Shown in pieces: positions 34,357 to 47,267 of a DNA stretch of 64,000 nucleotides (position 1 is the first letter of the stretch; every line of letters starts with the position of its first letter). Under the pieces are notes generated by a model. The model worked only from the letters and a program-made list of their open reading frames with translations. It had not been told where the DNA came from and did no database searches. The DNA is from an uncultured Clostridia bacterium (GTDB lineage Bacteria > Bacillota > Clostridia > Christensenellales > Borkfalkiaceae), in assembly GCA_947629575.1 (NCBI GenBank), contig CANREF010000001.1:62001-126000 (forward strand), written 5' to 3'. The translations under genes and the position numbers were made by a program.

Positions 34357-34385
34357 TTGACGGAATTTTCAAAATGTGATAGAAT
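34357..34385 (+). promoter_or_regulatory. Promoter of the ABC transporter operon
   Basis: TTGACG (34357-34362), 17 bases, TAGAAT (34380-34385), about 97 bases before the first start codon. The region 34236-34480 otherwise shows no gene; a 42-codon frame from 34315 runs through the promoter and is not believed. Confidence 0.7.
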
Positions 34386-34481: not shown

Positions 34482-36569
34482 ATGAGGTCAATTTCAAAGA
34501 AAGGGAAATTTTTTCTCGCCGGAGCGATCTTTCTTGCTCTGGTCTTTATTGCTGCTGTCGTGATGTTTATCGTCTCCTGCGTCAAGGCGGAACAGACCTC
34601 GGAGCTGGGATACGATATCAACCAAGAAAACGTTCTGCGCATTTCCGTGGACGAGGAGGGAAACCGCATCGCGGGCACGCAGGAGGGCAAGCTCTTTGCG
34701 TTCAACGAGGACGGGGAGCTTCTCTGGGATGTGGGGCAGGTCGATTCCACGCAGGTCTTCGACATCAAAGTAAAGGACGGCATGGTCTATGCCGCCTATG
34801 CGAGCGGGAAGATCTATTCCTTCTCGGAGGCGGACGCCCTCGCGTTCTACGGGCGGGCAAACGAGCCCGCGCCCGCAGCGGAGGATGGCGAGCCCGAACA
34901 GGCGGAGACGGAGAGTTTTTCGCAGTTTTGCACCGTCTATTCGGCGGGAAAGGCAAATCTCTCCACCAATGCGAAATCGTACAATACGGAGATCCTCCTC
35001 GGCGACGGGGAGTTTTGGTTCCGCGCTCCCTTTAACGACGGTTCCAACCGCTATTATTTATACCGTTTCACGGTCGGAAGCGGGGAATACGAGCAGATCT
35101 GCCGCAGTCCGAGCTCGAACAGCATTTCGGGCATGGCGCTTTGCGGCGGAACGTTTTACTATTCCCGCGCAAACGGCGTCTTTTGCGGCGAAAAGCAGCT
35201 CTACTCTTGGGAGGGCGAGATCGTCGCGCTGTCCGCGTCTTCCGAAGAACTCTCCATTCTCACCAAGGACGGACAGCTCATCGCGCTCGATCCGCAGAGC
35301 GGAGCGGAGCTTTACCGCGGCGCGGTCGGCGTGGAAGGGGACGCCTTCTTCTCGACGGGAGAGAATTTCCTCGTCAAGGTCAAAAACGGCGGGGTGGCGT
35401 TCATCGGTTCGGCGGAGCGGAACATCATCCTCTCCCTCAGCGCGAGCAACGATTCCGATTTCATCCTCTGGAACGATGACTGCTTTGCCCTGCGGGACAG
35501 AGGGGATATCGAGCATCCGTCCGTCATCTTTTATACGTTCTCGGTGGCGCGGAGCGTTGCGCTCTTCGGAACGCTGCGGTGGGTCTTCCTCGGCGTCTCG
35601 TTGGCGGCGGTCATCGGATTGGTGATCTGCGCCTTCTCCGTACAGGATACGGGAAGACGCAAACTCGCCGCTCAGACGAAGTCCTTTGCCAAGGACGTAT
35701 GGAAGAATAAGAGCATCTATATCGCGCTCGTCATTCCCTTCGTTCTGCTCATCATTTTCTATTACATCCCCATCGTGCTCGGATTTTCCATTTCGTTTAT
35801 GGACTACGTGCCGGGCGTGAGGTCGGTCTTCGAGGGCTTCCGATATTACGGGGCGGTTTTCCGCAGCGCAGTCTTTTGGGAGAGCACGGGGCACATGGTG
35901 ATCCTGCTCATTGCCGACCTGCTCAAGGCGCTCATCCCTCCGTTCATCATCGCCGAACTCATTTTTGCGGTGAAGCTCAAACGTTTCTCGCTATGGGTGC
36001 GCATCCTGCTCTTCCTGCCCGGGATCTTGCCGGGCGTTGCGACCACCCTCGTGTGGCAGGAGGGCATCTTCGGAAGCGATCTGGGAAGCGGATTGAACGC
36101 GATCATCCATGCGATCGTGCCGAGTTTCGTCGCCAAGAATTGGCTGTTCGACAACGTGCCCCTTGCGCTCTTTTCCATCATCTGTTTCGGCTTCCCATGG
36201 GTGGGGGCGTATCTCATCTTTTACGGCGCTCTCGGGGGGATCAACACTTCGGTGTTCGAGGCGGCGAAGCTCGACGGCTGTTCGTGGATCCGCCGCGTCA
36301 TCCGCATCGATATCCCCATGATCCTCTCCCAGTTCAAATACGTGCTCATCACTTCCTTCATCGCTTCGGTGCAGAACTACGGCACTCTATATATCGTGTA
36401 TAACGGTCAGTCGGACACCGCTCTGTTAAAGACGCCCGCGCTGCTCATGTACGACCGCATCAGCGGCGCCCAATACGGCGCGGCGAGCGTAATGGGGGTG
36501 TTCCTCTTCCTCATCCTTGCCGCGGCAACGTTCTTCAATTTCCGCTCTCAGAAAGAGCAGCTTGACTGA
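34482..36569 (+). CDS. MalF-type sugar ABC permease fused to an N-terminal extracytoplasmic propeller-like domain
   Basis: A 695-residue protein, over twice the length of ordinary permeases (about 290-330). A first membrane segment (about 10-32) is followed by about 325 extracytoplasmic residues with repeating blade-like units (RISVDEEGNRIAGTQEGKLFAFNEDGELLWDV, DIKVKDGMVYAAYASGKIYSF, LTKDGQLIALDPQSGAELYR), as in PQQ-type or WD beta-propellers. An extra membrane segment (about 361-385) leads into a complete permease (about 410-695) with the EAA loop EAAKLDGCSWIRRVIRIDIP near residue 592. Permeases of this class pair with a MalG-type partner, present just downstream. GGGGGAC precedes ATG 34482. 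No ATPase gene lies in the cluster. Confidence 0.85.
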   Translation: MRSISKKGKFFLAGAIFLALVFIAAVVMFIVSCVKAEQTSELGYDINQENVLRISVDEEGNRIAGTQEGKLFAFNEDGELLWDVGQVDSTQVFDIKVKDGMVYAAYASGKIYSFSEADALAFYGRANEPAPAAEDGEPEQAETESFSQFCTVYSAGKANLSTNAKSYNTEILLGDGEFWFRAPFNDGSNRYYLYRFTVGSGEYEQICRSPSSNSISGMALCGGTFYYSRANGVFCGEKQLYSWEGEIVALSASSEELSILTKDGQLIALDPQSGAELYRGAVGVEGDAFFSTGENFLVKVKNGGVAFIGSAERNIILSLSASNDSDFILWNDDCFALRDRGDIEHPSVIFYTFSVARSVALFGTLRWVFLGVSLAAVIGLVICAFSVQDTGRRKLAAQTKSFAKDVWKNKSIYIALVIPFVLLIIFYYIPIVLGFSISFMDYVPGVRSVFEGFRYYGAVFRSAVFWESTGHMVILLIADLLKALIPPFIIAELIFAVKLKRFSLWVRILLFLPGILPGVATTLVWQEGIFGSDLGSGLNAIIHAIVPSFVAKNWLFDNVPLALFSIICFGFPWVGAYLIFYGALGGINTSVFEAAKLDGCSWIRRVIRIDIPMILSQFKYVLITSFIASVQNYGTLYIVYNGQSDTALLKTPALLMYDRISGAQYGAASVMGVFLFLILAAATFFNFRSQKEQLD

Positions 36570-36580
36570 GGAGGCGCAAC

Positions 36581-37537
36581 ATGGATCGTGAAAATAATTT
36601 AGATCAGACATTATGCGAATCGCTCATGGAGAGCGAACCTCTTCGGGTACAGGAACCGCCGAGAAAGATCCGCCGCCATCGCCGTGGGTTGGAGGGGATC
36701 CCCGTGCAGACGGTCCTCGTCATCCTGCTCGTACTCCTGCTCTTCCTCACGCTCGTGCCGCTCTTCATCACCTTTATCATGTCCATCAAGACGGAGGTGG
36801 ATATCTCGGCAAATTCCCTCTGGAGTTTCCCCAAGAGCGGATTGAACATCAAGAACAATTACAGTAAGGCGTTTACGGTGCTCTCCTCGCCGCTGTTTTA
36901 CACCCTGCTCATGGACGTCGGCGTCACGGTCGTCGTCATGCTTGGAAGCTGCTACGTCGCCTTTCTCTTCCAGTGGTATCGCTTCAGGGGGAACAAGCTC
37001 CTGTTCGCGCTCTTCATCCTGCCCATGCTCGTGCCCAATGTCGTGCTGCTCACGCCCACCTATCTCGTGGTATGCAACTTGGGGCTTGCGGGAAGGGGAA
37101 GCACGGTGCTCGGCAATTACTTCGGTATCATCTTGCCCTATCTTGCGGGCAACCAGATCGCCTCGGTGTTCATGCTCCGCGTGTTCATGCGGCAACATCC
37201 CAAATCGCTCTACGAGGCGGCGCAGATCGACGGCGCGAACAAATGGAATCTCTTTGTGCACGTCTGCCTGCCCCTTGCCTATCCCATCATGATGGTGCAG
37301 GGCATCGGGATCTTCGCGGCGATCTATAACGATTTCCTTTGGCCCGCCCTCGTATTCATCGAGCACCGCTCGGACGGTACGATCATGTCCATACTCAAGG
37401 AGAAGGCGTTCAATGCGGGCGGACAGGGCGCACGGTATGCAATGTATCTCGTTTCGGGTATCCCGCTCATCATTTCGACGGCGATCAGCATCAAGTTCTT
37501 CGTCTCGGGCGACTATGCGAGCGGCTTGAAGATGTAA
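36581..37537 (+). CDS. MalG-type sugar ABC transporter permease
   Basis: A 318-residue permease with an N-terminal cytoplasmic head of about 45 residues and six membrane segments. The EAA motif YEAAQIDGANKWNLFVHVCLP (about residue 214) marks the site that meets the ATPase. It begins 11 bases after the fused permease, with GAGGAGGCGCAAC before the ATG, so the two form the membrane channel. The ATPase is presumably a shared one elsewhere, as with MsmK in other Bacillota. Confidence 0.92.
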   Translation: MDRENNLDQTLCESLMESEPLRVQEPPRKIRRHRRGLEGIPVQTVLVILLVLLLFLTLVPLFITFIMSIKTEVDISANSLWSFPKSGLNIKNNYSKAFTVLSSPLFYTLLMDVGVTVVVMLGSCYVAFLFQWYRFRGNKLLFALFILPMLVPNVVLLTPTYLVVCNLGLAGRGSTVLGNYFGIILPYLAGNQIASVFMLRVFMRQHPKSLYEAAQIDGANKWNLFVHVCLPLAYPIMMVQGIGIFAAIYNDFLWPALVFIEHRSDGTIMSILKEKAFNAGGQGARYAMYLVSGIPLIISTAISIKFFVSGDYASGLKM

Positions 37538-37577: not shown

Positions 37578-39407
37578 ATGAAAAAAAGATGGATTATCGG
37601 CATAATGTCCCTGCTCATGTGCGGAGCGTTCCTGCTTCCCGCCTGCACCGAGCCCGTTAAGGGCAATCAGGGCGGCGGCAACGGCTCGGAGACCCAAACC
37701 CCCGGCGGTGAAACTCCCGGCGGCGAGACCCCCGGCGGAATTCCGAGCGGCACGCGCGAGACGATCACGATGTATACTGCGGTGAATATCATCGAGCAGC
37801 ATTCGCTCGAAGCGGTCGCCGCAAATTACGAGAACGAGCAGCAAAAGAGGGGGAACAGGATCTCCGTTGCGATCGAGAACGTCACCGACCCCGACGCCTA
37901 CAACATGAACATGAAGAACATGGCGGGCAACGGGGTGAAAAATCCCACCATCATCTCCATCGCCACCGTGCCCGAATACCACGGGACGGATAAGATCGTG
38001 GACCTTTCGGGCTATCTCGAAGAACCCAACGAATACAGCCCCGATTACGACACGTGGGCGGATTCGCTCGAACCCGACGCTTACCGCACCGTGCGTGCAG
38101 GCTCTTCTACGACTATCCCCGGCATCAGCTATTCCTCCAACTACACCTGCGTCTTTTACGACAAGGCGGCGATGAAGGAGGTCATGGGGAGCGATCCCCT
38201 CGTGGACGACGAGACGGGTACGATCGACATCGACGATCCCGCGTTCAACTGGGAATGGCTCATGAACGCCCTTCAAACGGCGTCGCAGCATCCCGATTTC
38301 CCTCATCCCCTCGGGCTCGCGCGGGACGCGCAGGCCTGCGGGCAGGACAGCTTCAATCTCTTCACCTCCTTCCTGAATATGTATCTCGACCAGTATTTCC
38401 GCGATTTCATCGAGACCGTCCACTCCGAGGAGGGGGATTACAGCTACATCCCCGCCTTCGACGAAGATTGGGCCTATGACGAGACCGATCAGTCCATCGA
38501 TCTGCCTTCGCGGTACACCTACAACTTCAACAAGGTCGTCGATTACTTCTTCAATCAGGGCGAAGAGTACGGGCCTCAGTCCGCACGCTTCAAGGAATGT
38601 ATGGAAAATCTCTACGATCTTCTGCAGTACAGCGGAGAGAAAGAGAGCTATGCGGATATGTTCCAGAACTTCAACCGCTGCACCCTCACCTATGAACACA
38701 TCGGCGGCAGCTATTCCGATCTGAAGCTCTTCTATGTGGAGACGCTCGGGTATGTGAGAACATACCGCGACGGATTCAACGACAAGGGGCAAACGGGCTA
38801 TCCGAGCGCAGAGCAGATCGATTCCCGTCTCGGCTGGTTCCTGATGCCCGCGATGAAGTCCGACCTTCCCGGCGTCGCGAAGGATGTGCGCGCATGGGGC
38901 GGCCCTCTCGAAAACTACGGCGTGCTCTCCACAGGTTCGGCGACGAAGGACGCCATCGCAGTCGACTTCTTGAAATATCTCGTCTCCCCCTTGGGACAGC
39001 AGAGGATCTGCCAGCAGTACATGGAAGAGAACTACGCGCCTCAGGTGATGCACCAGCTCGTCAAGGGCATCACGATCCCCGAAGAGATCGACTTCACGCA
39101 GGTCGCTTCGGCGGTCCATGGCGACGGCGGTTCCAACCCCTATCTCAACTTCGGCGCGGGCAACGGCCTTTCCATCTGCAATATAGACGGCACGATGGAT
39201 AAGGTCTCCACCTCCGTTGCGAATGTGCTCTCGGGCTATCTCACGGGCGGCGACCGTAACTGGACGAAGGGCGTTGACCTTCTCAATGTTTACAAGAGCG
39301 GATTCAAGGACTATGCGGACCACTATTCCCTCATCTTTACCGATCCCGCAAATGTCTCTGCGGCAACGGGCGGATTGAAGAATTCCCCCTATAACACCAC
39401 CGCATAA
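37578..39407 (+). CDS. Extracellular solute-binding lipoprotein of the ABC transporter
   Basis: A 609-residue lipoprotein. The signal peptide ends in the lipobox LLPAC (Cys about residue 22), then comes a Gly/Pro linker with repeated GGETPGGETPGG, then a type 1 family binding-protein fold (TMYTAVNIIEQHSLEAVAANYENEQQKRG at the start, DFLKYLVSPLGQQRICQQYM near the end). It is longer than usual sugar-binding proteins (about 430), closer to the LipO/YtcQ group that binds oligosaccharides or complex glycans. ATGGAGGAAAATGT precedes ATG 37578. It follows the permeases by 40 bases and is the third gene of the operon. Confidence 0.88.
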   Translation: MKKRWIIGIMSLLMCGAFLLPACTEPVKGNQGGGNGSETQTPGGETPGGETPGGIPSGTRETITMYTAVNIIEQHSLEAVAANYENEQQKRGNRISVAIENVTDPDAYNMNMKNMAGNGVKNPTIISIATVPEYHGTDKIVDLSGYLEEPNEYSPDYDTWADSLEPDAYRTVRAGSSTTIPGISYSSNYTCVFYDKAAMKEVMGSDPLVDDETGTIDIDDPAFNWEWLMNALQTASQHPDFPHPLGLARDAQACGQDSFNLFTSFLNMYLDQYFRDFIETVHSEEGDYSYIPAFDEDWAYDETDQSIDLPSRYTYNFNKVVDYFFNQGEEYGPQSARFKECMENLYDLLQYSGEKESYADMFQNFNRCTLTYEHIGGSYSDLKLFYVETLGYVRTYRDGFNDKGQTGYPSAEQIDSRLGWFLMPAMKSDLPGVAKDVRAWGGPLENYGVLSTGSATKDAIAVDFLKYLVSPLGQQRICQQYMEENYAPQVMHQLVKGITIPEEIDFTQVASAVHGDGGSNPYLNFGAGNGLSICNIDGTMDKVSTSVANVLSGYLTGGDRNWTKGVDLLNVYKSGFKDYADHYSLIFTDPANVSAATGGLKNSPYNTTA

Positions 39408-39416
39408 GGAGGCGTC

Positions 39417-41324
39417 ATGAAAAAATTACTCTGCGTCCTCTTGAGTATCCTCTGTGTGTTCTCCTTTGCCGCCTGCGCGGAGCAGGGGACGAAGGGCGAA
39501 ACGCACGGCGGCGGGCAAGAAACACAGGTCACGGGCGCGCTCTCGCAGGACGACGTAAAGACGGGCTTTCTGCGCACGGCGGGGCAGGACGATTTCGGGC
39601 GCGCCTTCACCGAGACGGAAAGTTACAACAGCAACTATGTCGGCATCTTCTATTTCCTGTGGCTCGGGCAGGCTTCGAGCGCCGTCACGGTGGAGAAGTG
39701 GAACGCCGCGGGAAAAGCGGAATACACTCTGAGCGGGGAAAAAGACCCCGAGACGGGCGAAAGCGTTCCCGACATGCCCCAATTCACATGGTGGGGAGAG
39801 CCGATGTACGGCTACTACCGCGTGCAGGACGAGTGGGTCGTGCGCAAACACATCGAACTCTTCATCAATGCGGGGTTGGACTTCCTGTGCTTCGATACGA
39901 CGAACAACGACTACTACCGCACGGCGGCGCAGACGGTGCTCGATCTTTTGCTCGAATACAGCAATCTCGGCTACGACGTGCCCAAGGCGATGTTCATGAC
40001 CAACCACGATTCCCCGGGCATGATCAAGAGCATCTATAACGCCTTCTACAAGGACGACTATTACGACGACATCTGGTTCACGGGCGGCGGCGATAAGCCG
40101 TGGATCCTCGGCAGTTCCCGTTGCGATGACGCCGATATCATGGACCGCTTCTACTTCAAGCGTTCGCAGTGGCCGAACGCGGGCATCGTGCAAGAGGGCT
40201 TCCCGTGGATGGATTGGGGATATCCTCAGACGAGATACACCGACGCAGAGCACGATCTCACTATCGTGAATGTCTCCGTTTCCCAACATTTGGGAATTCG
40301 TCAGGGCGTCAACTTCTCCCTCTCGGGGCTGTGCTCTCCCTCCGTATTTCCCACCCTGCGCACCGAACTGCAGCAACAGCTCGGGGGCGCTTCCATGGCG
40401 GACCGCTATTACAACGCCAACTGGGGCAGGGGATATTCGCAGGAGACGGGCAAGAACGATCAGGCCGACATCATCAAGAACGTCAATTTCGAGGAACAGT
40501 GGAAGTTCCCGCTCGAGAACGATGACGTCAATCTGGTATTCGTCACGGGCTGGAACGAGTGGATCGCCCAGCGCCAGCCCGAAGACCCCGTGCTCGGCTC
40601 GGACTACGGCTACTATGTAGACACCTACAACATGGAGTTCTCCCGCGACCTTGAAATGATGGCGGGCGGATATCTCGACAACGCCTATCTCGCCCTCGTG
40701 CGCAACGTGCGCGCCTATAAGGGCGTGGGCGCGAAACAGATCGAAAGTCCGAAGACCTCCGCTGCCGATCTCACCAAGCTCGAGAATTGGGCGGACAAGA
40801 CCGCCTATGCCGATCTGGTCGGGGAGACGCTCCCGCGCGACAGTGCGGGCGCAGGGCTCAATACCCGCTATACGAACGACACGGGCAGGAACGACATCCG
40901 CGAGGTGCGCGTGGCGACGACGGACGACAGCGTTTGCTTCCTCGTCTCCACCGTGGAAAATATCACGGAGCGCGTGCAGGACGATACCCGCTGGATGAAC
41001 CTGTGGGTGGGCGTCAACGGCGCGCAGGGCGGTTGGAACGGCTTGCAGTATGTCGTCAACCGTTCGTCCGCAAACGGCAGGGCTTCCGTCGATAGGATCG
41101 AAAACGGGAACTTCACCAACATCGGCGAGTGCAATATCGTCGTTTCGGGCAGATACATGTTCGTGGAGATCCCCAAGTCCCTTCTCGGCATCGGCAGCGA
41201 TAAATTCGGTCTGCAATTCAAGGCGACGGACAATCTGCAGAAGGACTTTGATATCACCGACCTCTACACCAACGGCGACTGCGCTCCCATCGGCAGAGTC
41301 AACTACAGCTATTATTCGAAATAA
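39417..41324 (+). CDS. GH99/WbsX-like glycan-active lipoprotein with C-terminal CBM9/DOMON-like domain (paralog 1)
   Basis: A 635-residue lipoprotein (lipobox FSFAAC). Residues about 60-450 look like the TIM barrel of the GH71/GH99/WbsX group: YVGIFYFLWLG at the start, EPMYGYYRVQDEWVVRKHIELFINAGLDFLCFDTT, and FVTGWNEWIAQ, the WNEW motif common in these proteins. The last 170 residues (NDIREVRVATTDDSVCFLVSTVENI, WMNLWVGVN, CAPIGRVNYSYY) resemble a beta-sandwich carbohydrate-binding domain. It starts 9 bases after the binding protein with AAGGAGG, so it is in the transporter operon and likely acts on glycans at the cell surface before uptake. The exact family and activity are not established. 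Confidence 0.65.
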   Translation: MKKLLCVLLSILCVFSFAACAEQGTKGETHGGGQETQVTGALSQDDVKTGFLRTAGQDDFGRAFTETESYNSNYVGIFYFLWLGQASSAVTVEKWNAAGKAEYTLSGEKDPETGESVPDMPQFTWWGEPMYGYYRVQDEWVVRKHIELFINAGLDFLCFDTTNNDYYRTAAQTVLDLLLEYSNLGYDVPKAMFMTNHDSPGMIKSIYNAFYKDDYYDDIWFTGGGDKPWILGSSRCDDADIMDRFYFKRSQWPNAGIVQEGFPWMDWGYPQTRYTDAEHDLTIVNVSVSQHLGIRQGVNFSLSGLCSPSVFPTLRTELQQQLGGASMADRYYNANWGRGYSQETGKNDQADIIKNVNFEEQWKFPLENDDVNLVFVTGWNEWIAQRQPEDPVLGSDYGYYVDTYNMEFSRDLEMMAGGYLDNAYLALVRNVRAYKGVGAKQIESPKTSAADLTKLENWADKTAYADLVGETLPRDSAGAGLNTRYTNDTGRNDIREVRVATTDDSVCFLVSTVENITERVQDDTRWMNLWVGVNGAQGGWNGLQYVVNRSSANGRASVDRIENGNFTNIGECNIVVSGRYMFVEIPKSLLGIGSDKFGLQFKATDNLQKDFDITDLYTNGDCAPIGRVNYSYYSK

Positions 41325-43955: not shown

Positions 43956-46900
43956 ATGAAATTATTTAAGAAATGGAAATTGGCAGTGGCATCTGCGCTT
44001 GCCGTGTGCTGTTTGGGCACGGCGGCGGTAGGTGTCGCACTCACCACGGCAACCCCCGTTGCCGCGGCAGACACGTACTGGGACGGCATGGGCGGAGAAG
44101 TGATCGGTGACGTCACAGTTGCACATGCGGCGGTCGCCGTGCGCAACAATGTGGACATCACCAAGCTCCCCAACAAGACGGGCGTGTTCTACATGTATTA
44201 TTCCGATTCCGCGGAATGGAGCGGGTTCTCCTTCCGCAACGGCAATGACGGAATTGGGTATGCATGGAATTTGAGCGGCGGCGCCACCGAGACAGATTTC
44301 CCTTGGCACGCAGTCGCGTTTGAGAAGATCAACCAACACATGATTCTCCACGATTCCCGCATTTCCAACGGTCATGGGGGCACGCACGGCGGGATCAGCG
44401 GCGTGGAGGGAGAGAACTTTCTCGACGGCATGGTGCCCGTTGAAGTGCACATTGGCGAAGGAACTGCCGCAAACGATCCTTCTTACATCAAGATCGGCGG
44501 CGTAGAACTTTTGCATGAGAATACGACGATCTCCGTCACGCAGGCGCAGACCCGTTCCGATACGGGCGCTGTCAAGGAGCTCGTCGCCTCGATGTTCCCC
44601 AAGGGCTGCTATGTGACCGTAAACTACAATATCGGCAATGCGAGCTCCCACACTTTTGCGCTCTCCAATGTCGGCAGCGTCGTCGGGCTCAACGCTTCCA
44701 TGGATATGACGGCGGCACAGCAAGTGGAGCGTTTTTCCAAAGATCTCACATTGGATCTCTCCGCTCCCGACGCATTCAAGGACGGCTATACCGTAACGGC
44801 TTCCGTCAACGGACACGCCCTTGACAGCGGCGCCGTCACCGTCACCAAGACGAACGACAACAGCGCGTCTGTGCGCATCTCGAAGGAAACGCTCAACGGC
44901 CTTCAGAAAGATTGGCTGGCGACGACCTCTTACTTCTCTTTCAACGTGAAGAACGGCGGAACGGACTACGGTAGCGCAGTCGTGGCGACAAAGATCTCGT
45001 TCGAAGCTCCCGCTGAGTTTACCGAAACGAGAAAGACCCTCACCGAAAAAGAGGAGTTCTCCTTTGACTTCACCTACAACGGCAGCGTGAATCCCGTGAA
45101 CGACGCCACCCTCTCCTACCGTTTCGCTTCCAACGCCGCCGTTGCTCTGGAAAAGGGAACTGACTTCACGGTCACGAAGAAGGACGCGGAGGAGCACGCA
45201 TACACCCTCACGATCACGAAAGCGGGCGCGGAAAAGATCTTTAGCGGTCACGTCTCCGTCACCCTGCTCGCACAGGTCGGCCTCGGAGATCCCATTTCTC
45301 TGTCGGTGCTGCTCGAGGGCGGACATACGAACGAATGGCACATCCGCTACCGCGAAGGCGTCGACTATGTGGACGGAACTTTGGAGCAGAATGAGTACTA
45401 TTCCTCTGCGACGATCAATATCCTCAAGCCCGCGATCAACGCTTCGCGCGTCGTCTATGAAGATCCCGTTCCCGTCGATAAGCCCATCGTCATCGAGTAT
45501 AGCAACCTTCCCGCACAGGTGGAGTGGATGCTCATCTCTATCATGAAGGATCTTGCCGTCTCCGAATATTTCGACGAAAACACGTCCTATGAGGCGGGCA
45601 ATACCTTCCCGTTCATCATGTTCGGCGGTGGCAGACATGACATGCAGGGCTTCAATAACGCCTTCCAGAGAGCGGGCAAGCCCGAGGGCAATACCGTGGG
45701 CTTCAGAGAAGTCACGGACAACAAGAACAACATCGTTGAAATTTACTTCGGCAAGACGCTCGACGAAGGTTACATCAAGGTCAACGGCTATGAAATGATG
45801 GTCAAGCCGGGAAGAACGCAGGACGCTTTCCCGAACGGAACGGCATATGTCGGCTTCTTCCTCAACAACAAGCAGACGTTCGACTTCACGATCAACACCC
45901 ACCTCAACGCCGTTGCGATCACCGCGCCGCAGGCGAACGAAGAATACGCAATGGATATCGGCAAGGCGGATGACTTTGCTGTCGAGCTCATGAACACGAG
46001 CGGCAACCTCACGCTGAAGGACGGGGATACCACGATCGACAAGAGTATGTATACCTTTAAGGCGGGCGAGAACGACACGGGCACGCTCACGATCAAGGCG
46101 GATTACTTCAAGACAAGACCGTTCACCGTCCGCGGACAGATCCTCATCTGGGATGAGACGAAGAAAACGGGCACGGGCTTCTATATGGACTTCACGAACA
46201 GCGCCATGGAATCCGCGCACGTCGAATATCTCAATTATGGCGAACTCAAGGACGTCACTTTCGATCTCGGCATCACGGGGATCAATTACGTCCTCATGAG
46301 CGGCGAGGCGATGCCCTCCGAGATGTATGAACTGAAGGACGGCAAGTTCACTGTAAAGGTGGCTGCACTCAAGAATGAGAAGGGACTTCAGGAGTTCATC
46401 GTCGGCGGCTTGGACGGCAAGATCTATCCCTGCTACGTCTACGTCAACGAATGGCAAAACGGCGTTGCGACAGAGGGCGAGGGCTCTTTGAGCGGCGACG
46501 AGGCAAGCGGTTTCACCCTCACGGGCAAGGTTTCGTTCGCTCATATGAAGTCCTACGATTTGAGCGGCGGCGTCACCTTTGGCGTTGAATTCGCCACCGT
46601 CGACGGCTACAACGAAAACAACCTCAACCTCAATCCCCACACCGTGCTCGTCATCAAGTTCTACGATCCCGGCAAGGGCTACACCGTCCAGCTTACCCTA
46701 TATCCCAACTTCTCCGACGATAAGATCTCGACGGGCAACGAGGCCCTCTATCTCCGTTACGAGACCTTGAGAGAGGACGGCAGCGCGATCAGAACGAGAA
46801 GGATCGGCGTCATGGCGAAAACGGCAAGCGGAAACCACAACCTCACCCTCACCACGACGGACAGCGGCGATCTGGAGATCACCTATGCGGGCTATGCCTA

Positions 46901-47267
46901 CAAACTGACGAAGTCCGATCTCGACGGCTTCAACGCCACGAACTGCGTGCTCACCGTGGACGCAACAGGCTCCACCGCGGGAAGCGTCGTGAAGGTCGCC
47001 ATTCAAGAGGGCGTCCATGAGGACGATATGTACACGGGCGAGACCACTCCCGGCGGCACGACGCCCGGCGGCGACAATCCCGGCGGGAACACGCCCGGCG
47101 GAACGACCCCCGGCGGCGACAATCCCGGCGGAACGACCCCCGGCGGAAATGAAGAGACCGAACAGGGCGGCTGCGGCGGCGTCGTCGCTGGAAGCGGCTT
47201 CATCTTCCTTGCGGTGCTCGCGCTTGGCGCAGTGCTCATGACCGTTCTTTACAGAAAGAAGGATTAA
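43956..47267 (+). CDS. Giant secreted surface protein with Gly-Gly-Pro-Thr stalk and C-terminal GCGG-membrane-RKKD anchor
   Basis: An 1103-residue exported protein. A signal peptide (about 1-38, cleavage near PVAAADTYW) is followed by beta-rich regions that look like laminin-G or concanavalin-type modules (about 40-260, 470-690 and 830-1020) and Ig-like stretches between. Near residue 1027 a stalk of TPGG/NPGG units begins, then GGCGGVVAGSGF, a hydrophobic helix and YRKKD. There is no LPXTG; the Cys-Gly-Gly before the helix recalls tripartite C-terminal sorting signals of other phyla. AAAGGAGG precedes the ATG. Context suggests binding of glycans, but no catalytic motif is visible. Confidence 0.7.
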   Translation: MKLFKKWKLAVASALAVCCLGTAAVGVALTTATPVAAADTYWDGMGGEVIGDVTVAHAAVAVRNNVDITKLPNKTGVFYMYYSDSAEWSGFSFRNGNDGIGYAWNLSGGATETDFPWHAVAFEKINQHMILHDSRISNGHGGTHGGISGVEGENFLDGMVPVEVHIGEGTAANDPSYIKIGGVELLHENTTISVTQAQTRSDTGAVKELVASMFPKGCYVTVNYNIGNASSHTFALSNVGSVVGLNASMDMTAAQQVERFSKDLTLDLSAPDAFKDGYTVTASVNGHALDSGAVTVTKTNDNSASVRISKETLNGLQKDWLATTSYFSFNVKNGGTDYGSAVVATKISFEAPAEFTETRKTLTEKEEFSFDFTYNGSVNPVNDATLSYRFASNAAVALEKGTDFTVTKKDAEEHAYTLTITKAGAEKIFSGHVSVTLLAQVGLGDPISLSVLLEGGHTNEWHIRYREGVDYVDGTLEQNEYYSSATINILKPAINASRVVYEDPVPVDKPIVIEYSNLPAQVEWMLISIMKDLAVSEYFDENTSYEAGNTFPFIMFGGGRHDMQGFNNAFQRAGKPEGNTVGFREVTDNKNNIVEIYFGKTLDEGYIKVNGYEMMVKPGRTQDAFPNGTAYVGFFLNNKQTFDFTINTHLNAVAITAPQANEEYAMDIGKADDFAVELMNTSGNLTLKDGDTTIDKSMYTFKAGENDTGTLTIKADYFKTRPFTVRGQILIWDETKKTGTGFYMDFTNSAMESAHVEYLNYGELKDVTFDLGITGINYVLMSGEAMPSEMYELKDGKFTVKVAALKNEKGLQEFIVGGLDGKIYPCYVYVNEWQNGVATEGEGSLSGDEASGFTLTGKVSFAHMKSYDLSGGVTFGVEFATVDGYNENNLNLNPHTVLVIKFYDPGKGYTVQLTLYPNFSDDKISTGNEALYLRYETLREDGSAIRTRRIGVMAKTASGNHNLTLTTTDSGDLEITYAGYAYKLTKSDLDGFNATNCVLTVDATGSTAGSVVKVAIQEGVHEDDMYTGETTPGGTTPGGDNPGGNTPGGTTPGGDNPGGTTPGGNEETEQGGCGGVVAGSGFIFLAVLALGAVLMTVLYRKKD

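Follow-up and report, generated by a model that had tools for sequence, protein, structure and literature searches.

A predicted beta-propeller on the outer face of a MalF-type sugar permease in uncultured Clostridia

Results and Discussion

The locus

The window, a 64,000-nucleotide stretch of DNA from an uncultured Clostridia bacterium, carries a gene cassette that starts with a single open reading frame for an unusually built sugar permease. All features listed here lie on the forward strand; residue numbers refer to the fusion protein.

34357-34385, sigma-70-like promoter, TTGACG-17 bp-TAGAAT (consensus match only, two mismatches)
34482-36569, propeller-permease fusion, 695 aa, one ORF
34527-34583, TM1, residues 16-34, N-terminus inside (hydropathy, charge counts)
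34608-35537, predicted extracytoplasmic beta-propeller, about residues 43-352 (profiles, AlphaFold model, structure matches)
35583-35639, TM2, residues ~368-386 (hydropathy, charge counts)
35712-36554, MalF/CUT1-type permease core, about residues 411-691 (NCBIfam, hhalign to MalF), with the EAA loop VFEAAKLDG at about residues 591-599
36581-37537, MalG-type permease partner, 318 aa
37578-39407, long solute-binding lipoprotein of CUT1 type, 609 aa from the ATG at 37578
39417-41324, GH99-like lipoprotein, 635 aa
41328-43487, second GH99-like lipoprotein, 719 aa, 30% identity with the first
43956-47267, large exported protein with a C-terminal TM anchor, 1103 aa

The promoter-like site lies just downstream of a terminator-like hairpin of the preceding gene, and a GGGGG run resembling a ribosome-binding site stands ahead of the ATG at 34482. 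No ATPase gene was found between 34407 and 47267. The ATPase of the importer is probably encoded elsewhere; an ABC ATPase-like ORF is present in another part of the genome (L024:5362-6696).

Topology and permease core

The fusion protein consists of TM1, a stretch of about 310-330 mostly hydrophilic residues, TM2, a cytoplasmic linker of about 25 residues and a complete CUT1 permease. Summed over the 16 members of the family described below, K+R counts are 59 + 54 on the expected inner flanks versus 23 + 28 on the outer ones; by the positive-inside rule, the long region is therefore placed on the outer face. Residues 403-693 match the NCBIfam models MalF, GlcT and UgpA with E-values of 2e-5 to 7e-9, all under the curated cut-offs, and the family profile aligns with E. 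coli MalF over 236 columns (hhalign E = 1.9e-13). A motif E-[AS]-[AS]-x-LDG, akin to the EAA loop, occurs in 15 of the 16 members, with none listed for L114. The outer location, the extra membrane anchor and the MalF-type core that a first-pass annotation of this DNA had proposed are thus all borne out. The propeller is anchored by two membrane helices ahead of the six-helix core, and the protein as a whole is best read as the MalF-type component of an oligosaccharide importer of the CUT1 class, its transport role being predicted from sequence.

Fold of the outer region

The same annotation had noted blade-like motifs in the outer region, and these proved real. For the window protein, the match to PQQ_2/BamB has an E-value of 7.7e-6 and falls a little under the Pfam gathering score, and PQQ_2 is matched by 9 of 12 family members, with the window member again below that score. 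When the 12-member profile was compared with the PDB, nearly all matches were propellers and few had other folds; the best (7e-17) were designed PQQ-type propellers, and BamB was also among them.

We modelled the propeller domain alone with AlphaFold, using an alignment of two sequences (the window protein and L014). The model (pLDDT 74, pTM 0.75) contains six four-stranded blades and a low-confidence seventh. As the last blade (model residues 283-323, about 40 residues) has a pLDDT below 50, the blade number is best given as six clear and seven likely. Comparing the propeller profile with itself revealed no internal repeat at a significant level (best P = 0.016), so the blades were called from the model and from external profiles. 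A Foldseek search with the model returned Tako8, Ika8, BamB, WD40 proteins and AztD (6n01), and VIA-align superimposed it on WD-type propellers with Z of about 20 and 3.4 A over about 263 residues. The fold prediction that had been proposed for the N-terminal part hence yields a propeller, with Z up to 20. Taken together, the family profile and the two-sequence model identify the outer region as a beta-propeller. Its presence agrees with the earlier annotation, while the span needs a minor correction: residues 33-360 had been given, and about 43-352 is nearer.

Within the propeller, about 30 residues (about 124-150) form a low-complexity insert that is without counterpart in most relatives. 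A single-sequence AlphaFold model of the whole protein reached a pLDDT of 42 and was set aside.

Distribution and origin of the fusion

We collected 16 fused proteins of 651-708 aa from 11 genomes or MAGs, which span the families f1, f18, f29 and f32 plus one uncultured Clostridia MAG. Within the family, four further genomes proved to carry the fused frame (a low prevalence, 5 of 201 genomes), a search of genome contigs added a 55% identical copy in the uncultured Clostridia MAG, and an order-wide scan contributed five more genomes, one of them holding two copies. Four additional copies were recovered when the permease core was used as query in nine of these genomes. There, core matches of at least 42% identity all lie in fused frames of at least 666 codons, and those of at most 35% identity all lie in frames without this propeller. 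Beyond the order, scans of 391 class and 348 phylum genomes gave no other clear case, the profile scans returning only weak one-blade matches in two genomes; such scans miss the most divergent copies, with L115 detected at E = 6e-6 only and L116 absent from the list. Searched viral contigs contained no relative.

In a tree built from the core only, the 16 propeller permeases form one side of a branch with support 100/99, against 26 propeller-less permeases, and we conclude that the fusion originated once in this sample. The single origin was followed by duplication and probably by transfer. Genome G043 holds at least three different cassettes (L016, L113, L116) from three branches of the tree, and for two of these cassettes the nearest copies lie in other genera or families; this outside kinship suggests horizontal spread of whole cassettes.

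The genome of the window is a fragmented draft of 38 contigs, which would suit an assembly or gene-calling error that joined two genes. The same unbroken order recurs at 16 loci in 11 genomes, with lengths of 651-708 aa and within a single clade. The search in other genomes that had been advised as a check thus gave 15 further loci, and recurrence together with the core-only clade refutes an artefactual fusion, the probability of which we regard as negligible.

Two CUT1-type permeases of 486 and 497 aa (L021:7416-8876 and L082:850-2343) carry about 200 extra N-terminal residues and cluster with each other in the core tree. In L021 the extra part apparently comprises several more TM helices and no propeller.

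Composition of the cassette

The MalG-type gene and the binding protein gene are constant features of the 12 cassettes compared. Of these, 11 also have a GH99-like gene; BLAST detected none in L038. A second permease and a long binding lipoprotein occur in every cassette with enough sequence, the lipoprotein in 15 of 15 loci, as the first-pass annotation had anticipated for long binding lipoproteins. The binding proteins of propeller cassettes measure 543-620 aa, versus about 390-450 aa for their nearest solved relatives. Those found by profile next to propeller-less permeases in the genome of the window have 458 and 525 aa, and a third such frame has 563 codons with an uncertain start. Long binding proteins accompany the propeller, yet the neighbour of the sister-clade permease is also fairly long.

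Similarity to GH99 is low among the GH99-like lipoproteins (E = 0.0033 for the window protein, 7.7e-6 in the best case, and 0.015 for endo-alpha-mannosidase structures). GH99 enzymes carry the motif WNEWxE. The GH99-like lipoproteins instead have an invariant TGWNEW-x-A (12 of 12), so one of the two catalytic carboxylates may be missing. At L023:2358-6398, two lipoproteins that end like the GH99-like pair (GDCAPLGRLNYAY) adjoin a propeller-less permease, which indicates that such lipoproteins are not confined to propeller cassettes. The 1103-aa exported protein ends in GCGGVVAG...TM...RKKD; relatives of it adjoin other cassette copies, with very uneven similarity.

Comparison with known systems

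The MalF-P2 domain of E. coli contacts MalE (PMC3150292). E. coli MalF and the fusion protein share a homologous core, the EAA loop, two TM helices before the six-helix core and a large extracytoplasmic domain on the MalF side. They differ in that P2 is inserted after TM3, the first helix of the six-helix core, whereas the large insert described here sits between TM1 and TM2 and only about 10 residues (442-452) occupy the position of P2. The contrast with the MalF loop drawn by the first-pass annotation therefore holds for position, by alignment, and for fold, as MalF-P2 is not known to be a propeller.

Large extracytoplasmic inserts in CUT1 permeases are already known. In MalG1 and MalG2 of the Thermotogales, about 500 hydrophilic residues without similarity to known proteins lie between TM1 and TM2 (PMC2246101). 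As in our case, the first two TM helices of a CUT1 permease are separated by a large insert, although there it is longer and on the MalG side. The fused propeller itself appears to be new; in the part of the literature that was searched, we found no description of a propeller-bearing sugar permease.

Two propeller proteins are of interest for comparison. AztD of the AztABCD zinc importers, a match to the propeller fold (6n01), acts outside the cytoplasm and cooperates with an ABC importer's binding protein, to which it hands zinc directly (PMC6689063). It is not fused to a permease, acts as a metal chaperone and serves a different class of ABC importer. Among curated profiles BamB (YfgL) comes closest, and it also ranks among the top structural matches, yet it is a lipoprotein of Gram-negative outer-membrane assembly and has no known link to sugar uptake.

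Evolutionary rate and co-divergence

In the closest pair (L033/L034), the propeller shows dN = 0.048 and dS = 0.556, which points to purifying selection. In three other pairs its identity is 31-47%, versus 78-84% for the core; by these values the propeller evolves much faster than the core. Per-column conservation in the propeller falls mostly on beta-turn glycines, which also dominate the values computed for each loop class and leave these uninformative. Co-divergence was computed over 13 related loci with core divergence removed. For the propeller and the binding protein, the two divergences then show a correlation of r = 0.63 (0 of 2000 permutations), compared with 0.31 for the propeller and the GH99-like protein and 0.33 for the propeller and MalG. 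MalG and the binding protein, treated in the same way, give 0.60. Contact between MalG and the binding protein is known in E. coli. The co-divergence fits, and favours without proving, a contact between propeller and binding protein; it could instead stem from saturation or from exposed proteins all diverging quickly.

Possible functions of the propeller

Our structural interpretation is well supported, the functional one less so. Of the options named in the first-pass annotation (capture, docking and sensing), co-divergence favours docking. We propose, at about an even chance of being right, that the propeller serves as a tethered docking platform for the large solute-binding lipoprotein. It would bind this lipoprotein, and perhaps the GH99-like lipoproteins also, and would keep the bound solute-binding lipoprotein above the translocation gate. 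The job of MalF-P2 in E. coli would then be done here from another position and with another fold. Docking is preferred because of the co-divergence, the MalF-P2/MalE contact and the AztD precedent, and the context is supportive, namely the propeller fold and its outer location, a 16-member core clade with a conserved second permease, binding protein and GH99-like lipoproteins, purifying selection on the propeller, and the NHL/Yip1 genes that adjoin CUT1 genes at 6 of 6 loci elsewhere in the phylum. Against it stand the similar value for MalG and the binding protein, the concentration of conserved columns at beta-turn glycines and the fact that most CUT1 importers function without such a domain. 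A more tentative extension, which we consider rather unlikely, is that the fast-evolving propeller picks out its cognate binding protein: several parallel importers of one cell would each accept only their own large lipoprotein, and importers of this kind would represent an undescribed CUT1 subfamily.

The main rival to docking is direct glycan capture, in which the propeller itself would bind long oligosaccharides and deliver them either to the gate or to the binding protein. The fast divergence seen between closely related pairs would suit ligand specificity, AztD likewise passes its cargo to an ABC binding protein, and surface lipoproteins of GH99-like type suggest that long glycans are handled. 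However, the family shows no conserved ligand site, its per-column conservation falling mostly on beta-turn glycines, and a dedicated long binding protein is invariably encoded nearby; we consider this reading unlikely. Less probable still is a sensory role, in which the propeller would detect substrate or the loading of the binding protein, relay this across the membrane and gate the transporter. TM2 runs directly into the core, and a two-component sensor with an extracytoplasmic propeller gave a very weak profile match (3ott, E = 0.027), but the fusion protein has no fused signalling domain and the intracellular linker is short. A role in assembly or tethering, in which the propeller would cluster the permease, the GH99-like lipoproteins and the wall-spanning protein without contacting the binding protein, seems to us equally improbable. 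Such a role would agree with the GH99-like lipoproteins and large anchored proteins that accompany most cassettes and with the place of BamB in a membrane assembly machine; on the other hand, the propeller tracks the GH99-like protein less closely than the binding protein, and cassette L038 lacks a GH99-like gene detectable by BLAST.

If the docking platform is real, unrelated folds at different loops have taken on the task of MalF-P2 more than once, and the cassettes provide a naturally occurring set in which to test how an ABC importer picks its partner from many binding proteins. A testable hypothesis would also follow for the counterpart described below, which is encoded by separate genes across the phylum, namely that an extracytoplasmic propeller serves CUT1 importers.

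A separate-gene counterpart

At six loci of the phylum, each with a Yip1 protein of 700-740 aa, an NHL propeller, mostly together with TPR, stands ahead of the Yip1 domain (6 of 6 examined), and all six genes adjoin CUT1-like permease genes.

L117:6550-13412, NHL/Yip1 locus
L118:6977-13972, NHL/Yip1 locus
L119:4850-14954, NHL/Yip1 locus
L120:4293-12475, NHL/Yip1 locus
L121:6779-13126, NHL/Yip1 locus
L122:6817-15202, NHL/Yip1 locus

These proteins resemble the fusion in that a membrane-anchored propeller is encoded with CUT1 permeases, and differ in being a separate gene with a different membrane domain. The literature searched gave no assigned function for them. The NHL propeller and the fusion propeller match over one blade only (hhalign probability 7.6), and common descent of the two propeller families is therefore not supported. 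DUF5696 proteins (three tested) or similar long exported proteins are further neighbours of the NHL/Yip1 genes. The loci hold pairs of CUT1-like permeases and often a binding protein too, and some genomes contain 10-16 Yip1 matches.
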